DNA of 64,000 bases from Cupriavidus sp. IDO (lineage in GTDB: Bacteria; Pseudomonadota; Gammaproteobacteria; Burkholderiales; Burkholderiaceae), in assembly GCF_000812465.1 (NCBI RefSeq), contig NZ_JWMA01000014.1:1-64000 (forward strand). Reading direction: 5' to 3'. Shown one piece after another: positions 2,893 through 19,438 of this stretch. The position numbers were made by a program, and so were the translations under genes. Within the stretch, counting starts at the first letter, position 1. Each line of letters begins with the position of its first letter. Under the pieces are notes generated by a model that was not told where the DNA came from, did no database searches, and worked only from the letters and a program-made list of their open reading frames with translations.

Positions 2893-2961
2893 GGTGCGGT
2901 ACGTTGCAGGATTAGGGGGTACTTTGAAAGCTGCGACAGCGCGTCGAGAAGCCGTAGCGAG

Positions 2962-3033
2962 CGGGTCGGAGCGGGCCTGAGGAGCGCAGCCGTACATGGG
3001 TACGGCGAGCACCGCAAGGCCCGATCCGGCCCG
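2962..3033. repeat. Nested intergenic inverted repeat
   Basis: Outer arms 2962-2978 and 3017-3033 are complementary over 17 bp with two mismatches. Between them is a perfect 7-bp hairpin GCCGTAC (2989-2995)/GTACGGC (3000-3006) with loop ATGG. It lies between livF and the CoA ligase gene and looks like a REP-type intergenic element or an mRNA-stabilising/attenuating structure. No second copy was noticed in this window. Confidence 0.6.
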
Positions 3034-3056
3034 CGCAGCAGGCTTATTCGTTTCTC

Positions 3057-3872
3057 TCAGGCAAGCCAGCGTTTGCGCCGGCGGTAACTCTTCACATCCC
3101 GGAACGACTTCCGCCCGGCGCCATCGGCATCATTGGCCGCAACGCCAAGGTAGAACTCCTTCACGTCCTCATTGGTGCGCAGCGATTCGGCATCGCCGTC
3201 CATCACCACGCGGCCGTTCTCCAGGATGTAGCCGTAGTCGGCATAGCGCAGTGCCACCATGGTGTTCTGCTCGGCGAGCAGGAAGCTGACCTTCTCGCGC
3301 GAGTTCAGGTCGCGCACGATCTCGAAGATCTCCTCGACGATCTGCGGCGCCAGGCCCATCGACGGCTCGTCGAGCAGGATCATCGCGGGCTTGGCCATCA
3401 TGGCCCGGCCGATCGCGCACATCTGCTGCTCGCCGCCCGACGTGTAGCCGGCCTGCGACTTGCGGCGGGTCTTCAGGCGCGGGAAGTAGTCGTAGATCTT
3501 CTCCAGCTCTTCACGCGTCTGCGCGCGCGACAGGCCGCGCGTGTAGGCGCCGGTGAGCAGGTTTTCCTCGATCGTGAGGTGGGCGAAGCAGTGCCGTCCC
3601 TCCATCACCTGGATCACGCCGCGCCGCACGAGGTCGTTGGGCGTGAGCTGGTCGACGCGGCTGCCGCGGTATTCGATCGAGCCCTTGGTCACGTCGCCGC
3701 GCTCCGCGTGCAGCAGGTTGGAAATGGCCTTCAGCGTAGTGGTCTTGCCCGCGCCGTTGGCGCCCAGCAGCGCCACGATCTTGCCTTCGGGCACGTCGAG
3801 CGAAACGCCCTTGAGCACGAGGATCACGTGATCGTAGATGACTTCGATGTTATTGACGGAGAGAAGGCTCAT
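3057..3872 (-). CDS. livF: LIV-type ABC transporter ATPase, LivF family
   Basis: 271-residue ATP-binding subunit of a hydrophobic amino acid/organic acid importer. Walker A GANGAGKTT is at about 37-45, the signature SGGEQQM and Walker B ILLDEPSMGLAP follow in order, and the LivF-type AEQNT switch region is present. ATG 3872 is used because homology begins at MSLLSVNNIEV. The C-terminus carries a basic tail (SYRRRKRWLA) slightly longer than usual. It works with LivG, LivH, LivM and the binding protein encoded upstream in the same operon. Confidence 0.9.
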   Translation of the reverse strand: MSLLSVNNIEVIYDHVILVLKGVSLDVPEGKIVALLGANGAGKTTTLKAISNLLHAERGDVTKGSIEYRGSRVDQLTPNDLVRRGVIQVMEGRHCFAHLTIEENLLTGAYTRGLSRAQTREELEKIYDYFPRLKTRRKSQAGYTSGGEQQMCAIGRAMMAKPAMILLDEPSMGLAPQIVEEIFEIVRDLNSREKVSFLLAEQNTMVALRYADYGYILENGRVVMDGDAESLRTNEDVKEFYLGVAANDADGAGRKSFRDVKSYRRRKRWLA

Positions 3873-3927
3873 GGTGCGGCTCGGTTGGGTATTGCGGTAA
3901 CTCTGGACTTCGCTTTCCTGCCGTTTT

Positions 3928-3956
3928 GCTCCCCTCGCCCTCCGGGAGAGGGGAGC
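3928..3956. repeat. Inverted repeat between livK and livF
   Basis: Arms GCTCCCCTC (3928-3936) and GAGGGGAGC (3948-3956) pair perfectly over 9 bp, with a small CCC/GGG inner helix in the loop. Repeats built on CCCTCTCCC/GGGAGAGGGG are, from general knowledge, common between Cupriavidus genes. Just after livK, it may protect the abundant binding-protein mRNA. Confidence 0.6.
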
Positions 3957-3979
3957 CAACCGTCAGGATTCGCGCGGCA

Positions 3980-5317
3980 TCAAGACTTCATGCAAGCCGG
4001 CGTAATCCCCTTCTCCTTCGCATACTGCGCGGCGGTCGCCTTGAACAGCGGATGGATCAGGTTCTTGTTGCCCTCGATCCAGTCGGACACCACCACCCAC
4101 TTGGTGCCATCCCATTGCTGGATCTTCACCTTGCCGGAGCCTTCATGGTTATCGCAGCTGGTCTTGATCTCCGGCAGCAGGCCGGTGGCACCCAGCTGCT
4201 GCAGGCGTGCATTGGTGATGTTGAGGTTCTCGAAGGCCCAGCGCATCTGCTCGCCGGTCATCGGCTTGCCCTTGCCGAACTTCGCCTGCGCCACACGGAT
4301 GGCTTCCACCGTCACCACCGCGGCCGACACGCCACGGTTGTACAGCACCGAGCCCACCTTGTTCTTGTCCTGCATATTGCCCTTGCCGGCGCCATAGACC
4401 ACCTTGTCGATATCGGCAATCAGGGGCACGGCGTGGCCCGCGACGTTCCAGGTCGCGCTCATGTAGCCCTTGGCGGCATCGCCGGCCGGCACGGTGTCTT
4501 CTTCCGAACCTGCCCACCATGAGCCGATCATCTTGTCGCGCGGGAAGCCCACCTTCTGCGCGGCCTTCAGCGCGGTCTGGTTCATCACGCCCCAGCCCCA
4601 GAAGATCACGTAGTCAGGCTTCTCCTGGCGGATCTTCAGCCACTGGGCGCCCTGCTCGTTGCCGGGGTGGGCTACCGGGATCTCGACCAGGTCGAACTTG
4701 CCGAGCTTCGCTTCGGCCTGTAGCGCCACGATCGGCTCCTTGCCATAGGCCGAGTCGTGATACAGGTAGACGATCTTCTTGCCCGCCAGCGAGCCGCCGC
4801 TCTTAGAGGCCAGGTACTTGACGATGGCCGAGACCTGCATCTGGTAGGTCGTCACCAGCGGGAAGGCATACGGGAACACCGAACCGTCCACGGCATCGGT
4901 ACGGCCGTAGCCCATCATCACCAGCGGCACCTTGTCGGCGGCAGTCTTGTCGACCAGCGCGTACGAAATGCCAGTCGACATCGAGTGATACGCAGTGCCC
5001 TTGGACGTGGCGTTCTTCGACTTCAGGCGCTCATAGCATTCCACGCCCTTGGCATTGTTGTATTCGGTCTCGCACTCTTCCCACGACAGCTTGACGCCAT
5101 TCACGCCCCCTTCCTTGAGGTTGACGTAGTTCAGGTAGTCGATGAAACCGCCGTACCACGACTGCCCGTTAGCGCCATACGGTCCCACGCGATAGCTCGG
5201 CAGCGCAACGAACTGCTCGCTGCTTTGCGCCAGTGCCGTTGCCGCCGGCGCCAGCAGTGCAGCCGCGGTGCTGAGCACCAGGGCGGCGCGTTGCACATTG
5301 CGGATCAGGTTGGTCAT
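3980..5317 (-). CDS. livK: LIV-type ABC transporter periplasmic binding protein
   Basis: 445-residue periplasmic substrate-binding protein of the LivK (type I fold) family. Residues 1-30 form a Sec signal peptide (basic MTNLIRNVQR, hydrophobic core, cleavage after ATALA or nearby). The start is supported by a good ribosome site (AAGGAGACTGTC before ATG). The mature protein shows the type I layout with the hinge region YHDSAYGKEP and FWGWGVMNQTAL. It is longer than LivJ/LivK (about 345 residues) and resembles binding proteins found beside acyl-CoA ligases, so the ligand is more likely an aromatic or aliphatic acid than leucine; that is inference. Confidence 0.85.
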   Translation of the reverse strand: MTNLIRNVQRAALVLSTAAALLAPAATALAQSSEQFVALPSYRVGPYGANGQSWYGGFIDYLNYVNLKEGGVNGVKLSWEECETEYNNAKGVECYERLKSKNATSKGTAYHSMSTGISYALVDKTAADKVPLVMMGYGRTDAVDGSVFPYAFPLVTTYQMQVSAIVKYLASKSGGSLAGKKIVYLYHDSAYGKEPIVALQAEAKLGKFDLVEIPVAHPGNEQGAQWLKIRQEKPDYVIFWGWGVMNQTALKAAQKVGFPRDKMIGSWWAGSEEDTVPAGDAAKGYMSATWNVAGHAVPLIADIDKVVYGAGKGNMQDKNKVGSVLYNRGVSAAVVTVEAIRVAQAKFGKGKPMTGEQMRWAFENLNITNARLQQLGATGLLPEIKTSCDNHEGSGKVKIQQWDGTKWVVVSDWIEGNKNLIHPLFKATAAQYAKEKGITPACMKS

Positions 5318-5330
5318 GACAGTCTCCTTC

Positions 5331-5344
5331 GCCCTCGAGGGCGT
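5331..5344. repeat. Perfect GC palindrome between livM and livK
   Basis: CGCCCTCGAGGGCG is a perfect 14-bp palindrome just upstream of the livK ribosome site, followed on the plus strand by TTTGTT. It may fold as a short stem in the intercistronic RNA and modulate livK expression. Confidence 0.4.
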
Positions 5345-5412
5345 TTGTTATGTGCAGGCTTTGCAGCCTTGATACGACAGACAGGAACTGCGAATAAATG
5401 GATGCGCCAACA

Positions 5413-6489
5413 TCAATGCGGGAACGGCCACAGGCGCAGCTTCTCCTTGGCGATCTGCCAGAGGCGCGCCAGGCCATGCGGCTCGACGATCAGAAAGAAG
5501 ATGATGAGCCCGCCGAATACCATCAGCTGAATATGCGACACCGTGGCGTTGGTGAACGGCAGGTGCAGCATCGACGCCAGCGGCGGCAGCATGTTGTCCA
5601 GGAAGATCGGCAGCAGCAGGATGAACGCCGCGCCGAGGAACGAGCCGAGGATGCTGCCCACGCCGCCGATGATGATCATGAACAGCACGCGGAACGACAG
5701 GTCCAGCGAGAAGCCGTCGGGCTCCACCGAGCCGAGGTAGCAGAACGCATACAAGGCGCCGGCCACGCCGCAGTAAAACGAGCTGACCGCAAACGCCAGC
5801 AGCTTGGTGCGCATCAGCGGAATGCCGATCACCTCTGCGGCAACATCCATGTCGCGCACCGACATCCAGGCGCGGCCGGTGGCCGAGCGCACCAGGTTCT
5901 TGGCGATCAGCGCCAGCACCGTCACCACGCCCAGCACGAACAGGTACTTCTTCACCGGTGTGTCGATGGCGATGCCGAACAGGTCCAGCCGCTGTGCCGT
6001 GATCACGCCCGACGAGCTGTTGTTCGAGAACCAGGGGAACTTGGTCAGCGCCCACACCACGAAGAACTGCGCCGCCAGCGTCGCCACCGCAAGGTAGAAG
6101 CCCTTGATGCGCAGCGACGGCAGGCCGAACGCCACGCCCACCAACGCGGCGGACAACCCGGCGAGAATGAACGTCAGCAGCACCGGCAGCCCTTCGATGC
6201 GCAGCTGGAAGTTGTATGCCGCATAGGCGCCTACTGCCATGAAGGCCGCGGTGCCGAGCGACAACTGCCCGGCGTAACCGGTCAGGATATTCAGCCCCAG
6301 CGCCGCCAGCGCGAAGATCAGGAACGGGATCAGGATGGCCGAGAACCAGTACTCCGAGCCGGTGAACGGGATCACCACGAACGCCACGGCCATCAGCACG
6401 GCAAAGCCGATGCGGTCCTGGCGGATCGGGAAGATCTGGCTGTCGGCAACGTAGCTGGTCTTGAACTGGCCGGCTTCACGATAGAACAT
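5413..6489 (-). CDS. livM: LIV-type ABC transporter permease, LivM family
   Basis: 358-residue integral inner-membrane permease with about ten hydrophobic segments. The LivM signatures LNILTGYAGQLSLGTAAFMAVGAY (about 85-108) and the EAA-like stretch ATGRAWMSVRDMDVAAEVIG are clear. The ribosome site AGGAGACTTGCC precedes ATG. It lies 24 bp downstream of livH and 95 bp upstream of livK. It pairs with LivH to form the channel energised by LivG and LivF. Confidence 0.9.
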   Translation of the reverse strand: MFYREAGQFKTSYVADSQIFPIRQDRIGFAVLMAVAFVVIPFTGSEYWFSAILIPFLIFALAALGLNILTGYAGQLSLGTAAFMAVGAYAAYNFQLRIEGLPVLLTFILAGLSAALVGVAFGLPSLRIKGFYLAVATLAAQFFVVWALTKFPWFSNNSSSGVITAQRLDLFGIAIDTPVKKYLFVLGVVTVLALIAKNLVRSATGRAWMSVRDMDVAAEVIGIPLMRTKLLAFAVSSFYCGVAGALYAFCYLGSVEPDGFSLDLSFRVLFMIIIGGVGSILGSFLGAAFILLLPIFLDNMLPPLASMLHLPFTNATVSHIQLMVFGGLIIFFLIVEPHGLARLWQIAKEKLRLWPFPH

Positions 6490-17263: not shown

Positions 17264-17321
17264 TGGGGTGGAACACCGACGCCGGCTCGTGCTGGCTCGG
17301 CGTGTCCTCCCTTATAGAGTA

Positions 17322-17340
17322 GGTGCCCGGAGCGGGCACC
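17322..17340. repeat. Strong stem-loop abutting the TnpB-related element
   Basis: GGTGCCCG-GAG-CGGGCACC is a perfect 8-bp stem with a 3-nt loop, 10 bp outside the left terminal repeat of the insertion. It has no U-tract. It may be part of the target site or an icmF upstream structure. Confidence 0.5.
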
Positions 17341-17350
17341 GGGCAAACAA

Positions 17351-17390
17351 AAGGCCACCTGTCGGTCAAGGGGGTCGCTTAAAGTGTTGA
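17351..17390 (+). repeat. Left terminal inverted repeat
   Basis: Inward-reading sequence begins AAGGCCACC (17351-17359) and ends GGTCGCTTAAAGTGTTGA (17373-17390). Both blocks recur, inverted, at the right end. The middle part (17360-17372) is not conserved in inverted orientation, but CCTGTCGGT (17358-17366) is repeated directly at 19391-19399. Confidence 0.8.
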
Positions 17391-17440
17391 CGTGGGTAAC
17401 GAGAAAAGCATAGAGTACTGTATATCCATACAGTACTCTA
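17387..17440 (+). promoter_or_regulatory. Promoter with LexA (SOS)-like box for the TnpB-related gene
   Basis: A -35 TTGACG (17387-17392) overlaps the inner end of the terminal repeat; a -10-like TAGAGT (17411-17416) follows at 18 bp. The sequence 17416-17435, TACTGTATATCCATACAGTA, matches the E. coli LexA consensus (TACTGT-N8-ACAGTA) with a fully symmetric CTGT-N8-ACAG core, within a perfect 12-bp dyad spanning 17411-17440. Betaproteobacterial LexA uses this box type. It overlaps the -10, so repression is expected. Binding itself is inferred. Confidence 0.65.
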
Positions 17441-17449
17441 GGTAGGCTT

Positions 17450-19221
17450 TTGCTCCACACCTTTGAAACCCGCCTCAATCTGCCCCCCGAGTTTGCCGCC
17501 TTGTTGGCGGTTAACTCGGAACGCTGGTCGTGGGGCGCGCGTAAGGCTTGGAGTCTTCTGTATCGACAAAACCTCACTCGAGCGACCGCCTACGCCACCT
17601 TAACGAGGGAAGGCTTTACCTCGCATCAGGTCAATTCCATGCTGACGCAAGCTGAAATGCGCCATGCAGGCTTGGTCGAACTCAAAAAGTACGAACGAGG
17701 TCAGCTTGAGCTGGCCATTCAGCGACGCGAACGCGCACTAGCGGACAAAGGCAAGAAAATTCAGGCCCTGTCAAAACGGCAAGCCAAGCTACGCGCTCAA
17801 CGCAATAAAGTAGCGCCGAAGCCGGGGAAAGCCCGTTCAAACCGCTACCTTACGACGCTAGCCCGCCTGCGGGAAGTCGATACCGAACTCAAATTTTGCC
17901 GCAACTGGGTCGCACAAAAAGAACGCGTTCTTACTGCCAAGCGCGGCAAGCTGTCCTCGCTGCTTATAGCTATTGATGAAGGCCGCTACAGTCTCTGTTT
18001 TGGCTCGAAGAAGCTGCTTCAGCAGCGGCCCGGCGAACACAACACCGAGACCACCCGTTCGCCTCTGTCGAGGATTGGCACGAGGCCTGGAACACAGCCC
18101 GAAACGGTCAGGTCTGGTCGATAGGACATACGGCTAAGCCCAGCGGCAATAGCGAACTACAGTGGCTGCCGGATACCAACCAGTTGCGCGTCCGGTTGAC
18201 GGACAAGCTTGCGCATGAACGCATGGACGCTTTGGGCATTCCTCGCAGCGGAGGGCCGCAAAAGGTGATGCCCCTTCGCATGAAATGCCGATTCATTGTG
18301 ATTGACGGGGTCGACTTTGCCTCGCATCGGGGCGCGGCGCGCGCAGCGCTGATTGACGCGTTTGGAAAGCGGCCTGTCACAATGCGGCTCTTGTAAAGGC
18401 TATCACCGGCCGGCGAGCGCATTTGGTATCTGCAAGCGAGCGTTGACGTTCCCACCGGTTTCAACCTAGAGACCGCTCGCACTAGAGAGGCCGGTGTCCT
18501 TGGACTGGATTTGAATGCCCGGGGCGTTGCCTGGGCTGTGGTGAAGCCCGATGGGAACCGATTGCGGGAGGGCCATCCGCAGAGCGGCTTTCTCGGCTGG
18601 GACCTAAAAGGCCTTTCCGACGCTGTACGCAAGCAAGTCATCGGAACAACCGTTGCAGAGCTTGCCCGCCTGGGCAAGCGCCTAGGCCTCGCAGTGGCCA
18701 TCGAGAACCTCGATTTCGCGACGAAGAAGGCCGGCTTGCGCGCCGACGGCATCAACAAGCGATACAACGAGATGCTGAGCACGTTTGCAAGCTCACAGTT
18801 CGCGGAGCTAATGACCCGTGCCTGTGAAAAGGCTCATGTTCGGCTCTATTTGGTGAACCCTTCGTACAGTTCGGTCGGAGGCTTCACCAAATATGGCCGT
18901 CCCAATCGAATCGGCGCGGATGAGTCCGCCGCTCTTTGGTTGGGCCGGCAAGCTTTGTACGGTATCCCCTGGAAGACAGTGGGTGCCCAGTGCTTCGTCA
19001 AGAGGCACAACGAGCGACTCGTCTTTTCGCACCTGCCAGCCACCCCGAAGCAGAGCAAGACGGCCCTGGCAGGGGCTCAATGGAAAGATGTCGCTTGGGC
19101 TCTAGGCAAGAACCGACAGCGATGGGGTGAAAACCTCCGCAATTGGTTCCTCTGCCAGGTCGAAACCCCTTCCCCGCAGACCGTCTGCGAGCCTGGTGTG
19201 GCGTCATTGGCAACGGGATAG
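17450..19221 (+). pseudogene. TnpB-related RNA-guided-nuclease-like gene, disrupted
   Basis: Reading through two lesions gives one protein of about 590 residues: a coiled, basic N-terminal half (KKIQALSKRQAKLRAQRNK) followed by a RuvC-like nuclease domain. Putative catalytic acids are Asp in GLDLNARG (codon 18508-18510), Glu in AIENLDF (18703-18705) and Asp in GADESAAL (18919-18921). The usual TnpB zinc ribbon between the last two is missing. The lesions are a -1 frame change between about 18026 and 18060 and an in-frame TAA at 18394-18396. The most upstream start is TTG 17450, just after the SOS-like box. It matches what databases call IS200/IS605 TnpB-related proteins. Confidence 0.8.
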
Positions 19222-19366
19222 AAGTGTGGTTTTCAGCTCGAGACCTCTAGGACCTCGAGCGGCGCAGTGAAAACTGCGTTTTGTCGCCGTGTTCTCTTGT
19301 GGAAGAAATTTTGCCTAAGAGAATGGCCATCTCTGCTAGGACAGAAGATGACCATTGAGAATTACA
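19222..19366 (+). ncRNA. Candidate guide-RNA-like structured tail of the TnpB-related element
   Basis: Between the nuclease stop and the right terminal repeat are consecutive stems: GCTCGAG (19236-19242)/CTCGAGC (19254-19260), then CGCAGT-GAAA-ACTGCG (19263-19278, GAAA tetraloop), then AGAGA/TCTCT around TGGCCA near 19318-19335. In TnpB elements the omega/reRNA scaffold comes from the gene's 3' end and right end. The stems are seen; an RNA product is inference. Confidence 0.35.
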
Positions 19367-19405
19367 TCAACACTTTAAGCGACCGTCTAGCCTGTCGGTG
19401 GCCTT
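19367..19405 (-). repeat. Right terminal inverted repeat
   Basis: TCAACACTTTAAGCGACC (19367-19384) is the exact reverse complement of the inner 18 bp of the left repeat, and GGTGGCCTT (19397-19405) of its outer 9 bp. The 12-bp middle differs. Confidence 0.8.
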
Positions 19406-19438
19406 GCGTGGGTCTGGGAATGAACGCTTGTCAGCAAT

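Follow-up and report, generated by a model that had tools for sequence, protein, structure and literature searches.

A putative LexA operator at the promoter of a TnpB-like gene in a small inverted-repeat element of Cupriavidus

We propose that a 20-bp box found in Cupriavidus sp. IDO is probably a LexA operator, set on the promoter of a TnpB-like gene within a small element bounded by inverted ends. According to the model, drawn from sequence comparison, LexA would lie over the -10 and start region in an undamaged cell and keep the gene nearly silent; upon DNA damage LexA would be cleaved, and the protein would be made together with an RNA from the 3' region of the element. In this scheme we infer LexA binding, SOS induction, nuclease activity of the protein and a guide role of the 3' RNA. 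If the model holds, DNA damage would turn on a TnpB-type nuclease while recombinational repair is active, and an element retained by cutting and copying would need just such timing. The first-pass annotation had claimed SOS control of a TnpB-related nuclease gene; the box and its recurrence in relatives speak for this claim, but the gene at this locus is broken. The reading is thus partly supported: the box is a real LexA-type match and would be a conserved but patchy operator, inert where it was first seen.

The window, the whole stretch of 64,000 nucleotides that was analysed, carries the box TACTGTATATCCATACAGTA at 17416-17435 on the + strand, recognised by sequence reading and by matrix scores; its sequence, coordinates and placement are confirmed. 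An enclosing dyad, originally described as a perfect one of 12 bp, does exist at 17411-17440, although its computed length is slightly greater (13 pairs with a 4-nt centre). A sigma-70-type promoter, TTGACG-N18-TAGAGT, is predicted at 17387-17416 (+ strand; prediction only), and is the sole promoter-like site in 17300-17500, where 0.1 would be expected. Its -35, TTGACG, falls within the left terminal repeat and its -10, TAGAGT, runs into the box. The TTG start of the gene, at 17450, lies 14 nt 3' of the box.

The box closely follows the LexA sites of its host. The Cupriavidus genome has one protein carrying a LexA DNA-binding domain, and the pattern ACTGT-N8-ACAGT occurs in this genome at 14 places vs 4 for a reversed control; for the 13 sites other than the box about 4 are expected by that control, and several lie near genes without a known SOS role. 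A Pfam scan of ten frames near the sites, those at L066 and L072 being left out, placed sites upstream of recA, lexA, uvrA and a DEAD_2 helicase gene; one further frame is a lipid A acyltransferase, 290 nt off and on the opposite strand, and five gave no match at all, a weak one or one to an unrelated family. With a full matrix built from the other sites without L072 (12 of 13), the box scores 32.9 bits, next to 33.3 for recA and 33.1 for lexA, and the next-best place in the window reaches 7.6. Because the sites had been collected by pattern, a second scoring took its matrix from the full set of 13 other ACTGT-N8-ACAGT sites and counted just the 12 positions that had played no part in the collection. 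Here the box attains 11.9 bits, a score matched by no other of the 63,978 window 22-mers; leave-one-out values are 12.1 for recA, 10.9 for lexA and 7.5 for uvrA, with two sites below zero (L063, -0.6; L072, -15.8). The box agrees with the host LexA sites, even at positions not used for their collection. The same pattern outnumbers its control in C. necator A5-1 (14 vs 2) and in the genome of the element copy L004 (3 vs 0, one of the three places being the element itself); it is not enriched in the genome of copy L005, given 2 places vs 3 for the control.

Some of these genomic sites are worth recording on their own account. L063 and L064 (G000:C112:20287-20323) are two ACTGT-N8-ACAGT sites one nucleotide apart. 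At L071 (G000:C199:3115-3132) a site on the opposite strand repeats exactly the 18-bp core found in the window box; it stands upstream of a frame whose HAD and TniQ matches are weak and fall below cut-off. A LexA-type site of the L005 genome (L081, 1500-1518) precedes a frame which by eye resembles ImuA.

Seven copies of the element were compared at the DNA level: those of the window, L002, L003, L004, L005, L006 and L008. L002, from C. necator A5-1, has an intact 590-aa frame from TTG and 97.6% DNA identity to the window copy; L003, the second copy in A5-1, is broken: segments within it are inverted and some 1.2 kb has been inserted (2901-6043 of its locus). A second genome of the same genus, G035, holds the intact L008 and the frameshifted L006. 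L004, from a Burkholderiales MAG, shows 66% identity by its best C-terminal segment and has the gene in two frames; L005, from a Rhodoferax MAG, shows 58% identity and contains an internal TAG and a stretch of N. Before the start codon, CTGT-N8-ACAG is kept in six of the seven (window, L002, L003, L004, L006 and L008). It had been suggested that the intact relatives be checked for the box: L002 and L008 do keep it, as do the broken L003, L006 and L004, but L005 has lost the right half-site and scores 18.4, still the best place in its locus. L004 scores 32.4, L008 27.4 and L002, L003 and L006 24.7 each, the lower values of the last four being due to a G for A beside the core. Since, apart from L004 and L005, every copy matches the one in the window at 96% identity or more over the aligned stretches, independent support for the box comes from one lineage, that of L004. 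The leaders of the window copy and L004 are unlike in both length and letters, flanks and centre having changed, yet TACTGTA and TACAGTA persist in both. By the same rule as before, the promoter was found in the window and L002, and not in L004 or L005.

Relatives known as proteins without DNA were judged by their N-terminal extensions, present in 8 of 92; that of P0050 was too short and that of P0026 too short to reach the box, and six were assessed. The extensions of P0058 and P0060, which belong to one lineage, are compatible with an exact box 8 nt ahead of the start (as are 1.6% and 1.4% of 500 shuffles, respectively). No exact box fits those of P0016, P0033, P0062 and P0074: P0033 and P0062 are one base short, which 17.8% and 48.4% of shuffles equal, and P0016 and P0074 two. 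Given the loss in L005 and these incompatible extensions, the box appears to be kept in part of the family only.

Could the dyad act solely as an RNA device, a leader hairpin or attenuator useful where an element is lodged in terminators and perhaps read through from outside, with the LexA match incidental? We consider this unlikely, even if several features of the leader would suit it. Beyond the core the stem adds 7 pairs in the window copy and, in differing letters, 8 in L004, vs 1-4 pairs in the 13 other genome sites, and with G-T allowed it adds 7 in L003, L006 and L008; LexA alone does not require such a stem. Read-through leaders also out-fold their shuffles in the window (z -3.18) and in L004 (z -7.12), with 0 of 200 shuffles in each case, and the dyad has the look of a terminator, in L004 when read on the + strand and in the window when read on the - strand. 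Yet the letters that the window and L004 share are those of the LexA consensus, beyond mere complementarity, and strict pairing beyond the core drops to 0 in L002, L003 and L005 (3 in L002 with G-T allowed). The L005 leader, moreover, folds weakly (z -1.27, 19 of 200 shuffles), an RNA from the predicted native start would carry just half the dyad, and in none of five copies is the start codon clearly more hidden in the read-through RNA than in one starting at the box centre. A dyad that hides the TTG start in read-through RNA was rejected as a candidate: the chance of the TTG being unpaired is about the same as in native-start RNA in both the window and L004, falls only modestly below it in L002 and L003, and exceeds it at the last base in L005.

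A longer dyad than that of the host LexA sites might also point to another dimeric repressor, perhaps of phage or element type, whose half-site happens to be LexA-like; this we hold to be quite improbable, as the element is without a regulator gene and the unselected positions fit the host recA and lexA sites. Nor does a chance dyad seem credible, save at the very margin. It is true that the 8-base core by itself is not beyond chance, since the single CTGT-N8-ACAG of the 64 kb compares with an expectation of 0.61 and such a core turns up in 48 of 100 shuffles, and that some members of the family have a degraded box or none. Three things place the box above chance: its seat on the -10 of the promoter, its fit at the unselected positions and its recurrence in L004. 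A LexA operator remains our preferred reading of the box.

The element itself, delimited by sequence comparison, occupies 17367-19390 (+ strand; 2,024 bp). Its left terminal inverted repeat is at 17367-17393 (+) and its right one at 19364-19390 (-); the arms 17373-17393 and 19364-19384 were computed (21 bp, 95% complementary) and the outer 6 nt of each were added by reading. The target duplication CCTGTCGGT stands on either side, at 17358-17366 and 19391-19399 (both +), with a 9/9 match. A TnpB-like gene with a TTG start, at 17450-19221 (+), is the only conserved gene, and here it is broken: the frame changes near 18050, residues 1-203 and 201-590 being read in different frames, and there is an in-frame TAA besides. 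Because of the frameshift and this stop nothing functional is controlled in the window. The operator there is a remnant in front of a dead gene, and its place of action would be the intact copies L002 and L008. In a Pfam scan of the conserved gene no TnpA was found, nor any match to the rcr transposase of ISCR elements. IS607 elements are described as lacking both terminal inverted repeats (TIRs) and target duplications (PMC6188088). The present element has both, and so departs from IS200/IS605 and IS607 elements as defined by a TnpA, no TIRs and no target duplication.

The target duplications are perfect in the window (9), L002 (10) and L008 (10), with one mismatch in L003, L004, L005 and L006. 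When the flanks are joined, a terminator-like hairpin spans the insertion point in six of the seven copies (window flanks 17340-17366 and 19391-19415); the L006 site is a short palindrome with no clear stem. Contiguous target stems measure 9 pairs in the window, 5 in L002, 11 in L003, 10 in L004 and 11 in L005, the L004 value depending on the duplicate copy chosen (the left one gives 8 pairs and a mismatch). Stems of at least 9 pairs are present at 0.7% of 20,000 random window spots.

Of 8,000 scored candidates, 92 were relatives of the protein at E<=0.001; a 22-sequence profile gave 94 at E<=1e-30. The intact copy gives 28.7 bits with the NCBIfam model guided_TnpB, below the curated cut-off of 100, and the NCBIfam TnpB model is matched at E<=0.01 by all 22 aligned members. 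Pfam returned no match in the intact copy, the OrfB zinc-ribbon/TNB domain (PF07282) included; this domain is seen weakly, below cut-off, in the distant P0089 and P0092 and in the locus L013. Across the 22 aligned members D354 and E419 never change and D491 hardly does, and, judged by motif resemblance, these three would form a RuvC triad. A profile search of solved structures gave a best E of 0.017. We regard the protein as a remote relative of TnpB, not filed as a member of the family; the nuclease activity named in the earlier label is presumed from remote similarity only.

Downstream of the gene, two hairpins on the + strand covary among relatives, at 19236-19260 (7 pairs) and 19263-19278 (6 pairs). 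In an alignment of four copies (window, L002, L004 and L005), of which two rows are near-identical and from which the structure was both drawn and scored, both hairpins are kept in 4/4 copies and 52/52 cells are paired; 5 of the 13 pairs are changed on both sides, and the covariation score was reached by 0 of 500 shuffles, the pair-type count not being above shuffles (316/500). Whole 3' regions out-fold their shuffles in the window (z -3.29) and in L004 (z -5.54), and Rfam had no match in four loci. The 3' region may fit, without proving, a guide scaffold of TnpB type. The hairpins 3' of the stop codon, in 19236-19362, resemble right-end RNA.

Control of mobile DNA by LexA is not new in itself. 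For ISCR1, ISCR2 and ISCR8 the transposase promoters are reported to be LexA-controlled, with LexA binding and SOS induction shown; in the terminal region of these elements CTGT-N8-ACAG overlaps the -10 of a promoter that the element itself supplies, as it does here (PMC13393415). The ISCR gene is the transposase rcr, whereas ours is TnpB-like, no transposase was found with it, and LexA control is read from sequence. Integron integrases are likewise LexA-controlled, and loss or degradation of their box accompanies inactivated genes (PMC3108266); L005, with a degraded box and a broken gene, is alike in this, as is SOS control of a mobile-element recombination gene, but an integron integrase is a tyrosine recombinase and the element a different one. 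ISDra2 (IS200/IS605) of Deinococcus, like the present element, bears TnpB, and its transposition rises after irradiation; unlike here, irradiation acts on TnpA-catalysed excision and insertion, TnpB being dispensable, and the available sections of that source contain no mention of a LexA operator on its tnpB (PMC2806898). IS1272 shares inverted-repeat (hairpin) targets and terminal inverted repeats with our element, but it uses a DDE transposase and replaces its target hairpin without duplication, whereas 9-10 bp are duplicated here (PMC5678879). With TnpB of IS605 and IS607 there is remote similarity over the RuvC-like part and a 3' hairpin RNA region in common, set against TIRs, target duplication, no TnpA found and a score below the TnpB family cut-off. 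In the portions of the literature found for TnpB with LexA or the SOS response, no LexA operator on tnpB is described. The novelty would thus lie in the kind of gene and not in the kind of control, as LexA-controlled promoters of insertion sequences and integrons are already published. We can also envisage, though we lean slightly against it, a TnpA-less, TIR-bounded class of TnpB-like elements that insert into terminator hairpins and are switched by SOS, in which RNA-guided cutting, and perhaps movement or retention, would be coupled to damage. The element raises the question of what moves a TIR-bounded unit with 9-10 bp duplications at terminator hairpins, with no transposase in sight.

Close relatives of the element are few in what was searched. 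A nucleotide search of plasmids had no match to it, and tblastn against plasmids and phages gave 19 and 4 records, all distant, the best place of each at most 30.5% identical. Viral contigs yielded 21 pattern stretches with no relative among them, and the TIR-plus-box pattern 24 viral loci with a best tblastn E of 0.028. In an order-level sample, 2 of 399 genomes had a match, namely the own copy and a distant one. The family of G434 had matches in 5/399 genomes and its genus in 4/89, only G434 being close in either; at E<=1e-30, G433 itself was the one match both among its relatives (1/297) and in its family (1/369, where the listed rows are largely those of the G434-family search). Most protein relatives come from a metagenome collection. 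As to an autonomous partner, the TIR pattern was confined to element ends in four genomes, save for one unpaired place in G000; when 3 mismatches were tolerated in a scan of two genomes, its counts resembled those of a reversed control, and no inward-facing pair within 5 kb appears except the elements. A DNA search found matches in 3 of 60 genomes: the own one, G035 (two copies) and G003 (a 41-bp match). Among distant TnpB loci, nine had no CTGT-N8-ACAG and ten no convincing TIRs. Upstream of the distant TnpB relatives at L010, L012, L025, L028, L030 and L057 are frames which by eye resemble the C-terminus of IS607-type TnpA. The window's own genome carries a distant open TnpB-like frame as well (L013, 1159-2832; G000:C18:94036-95223 matched), of 558 aa and 28% identical.
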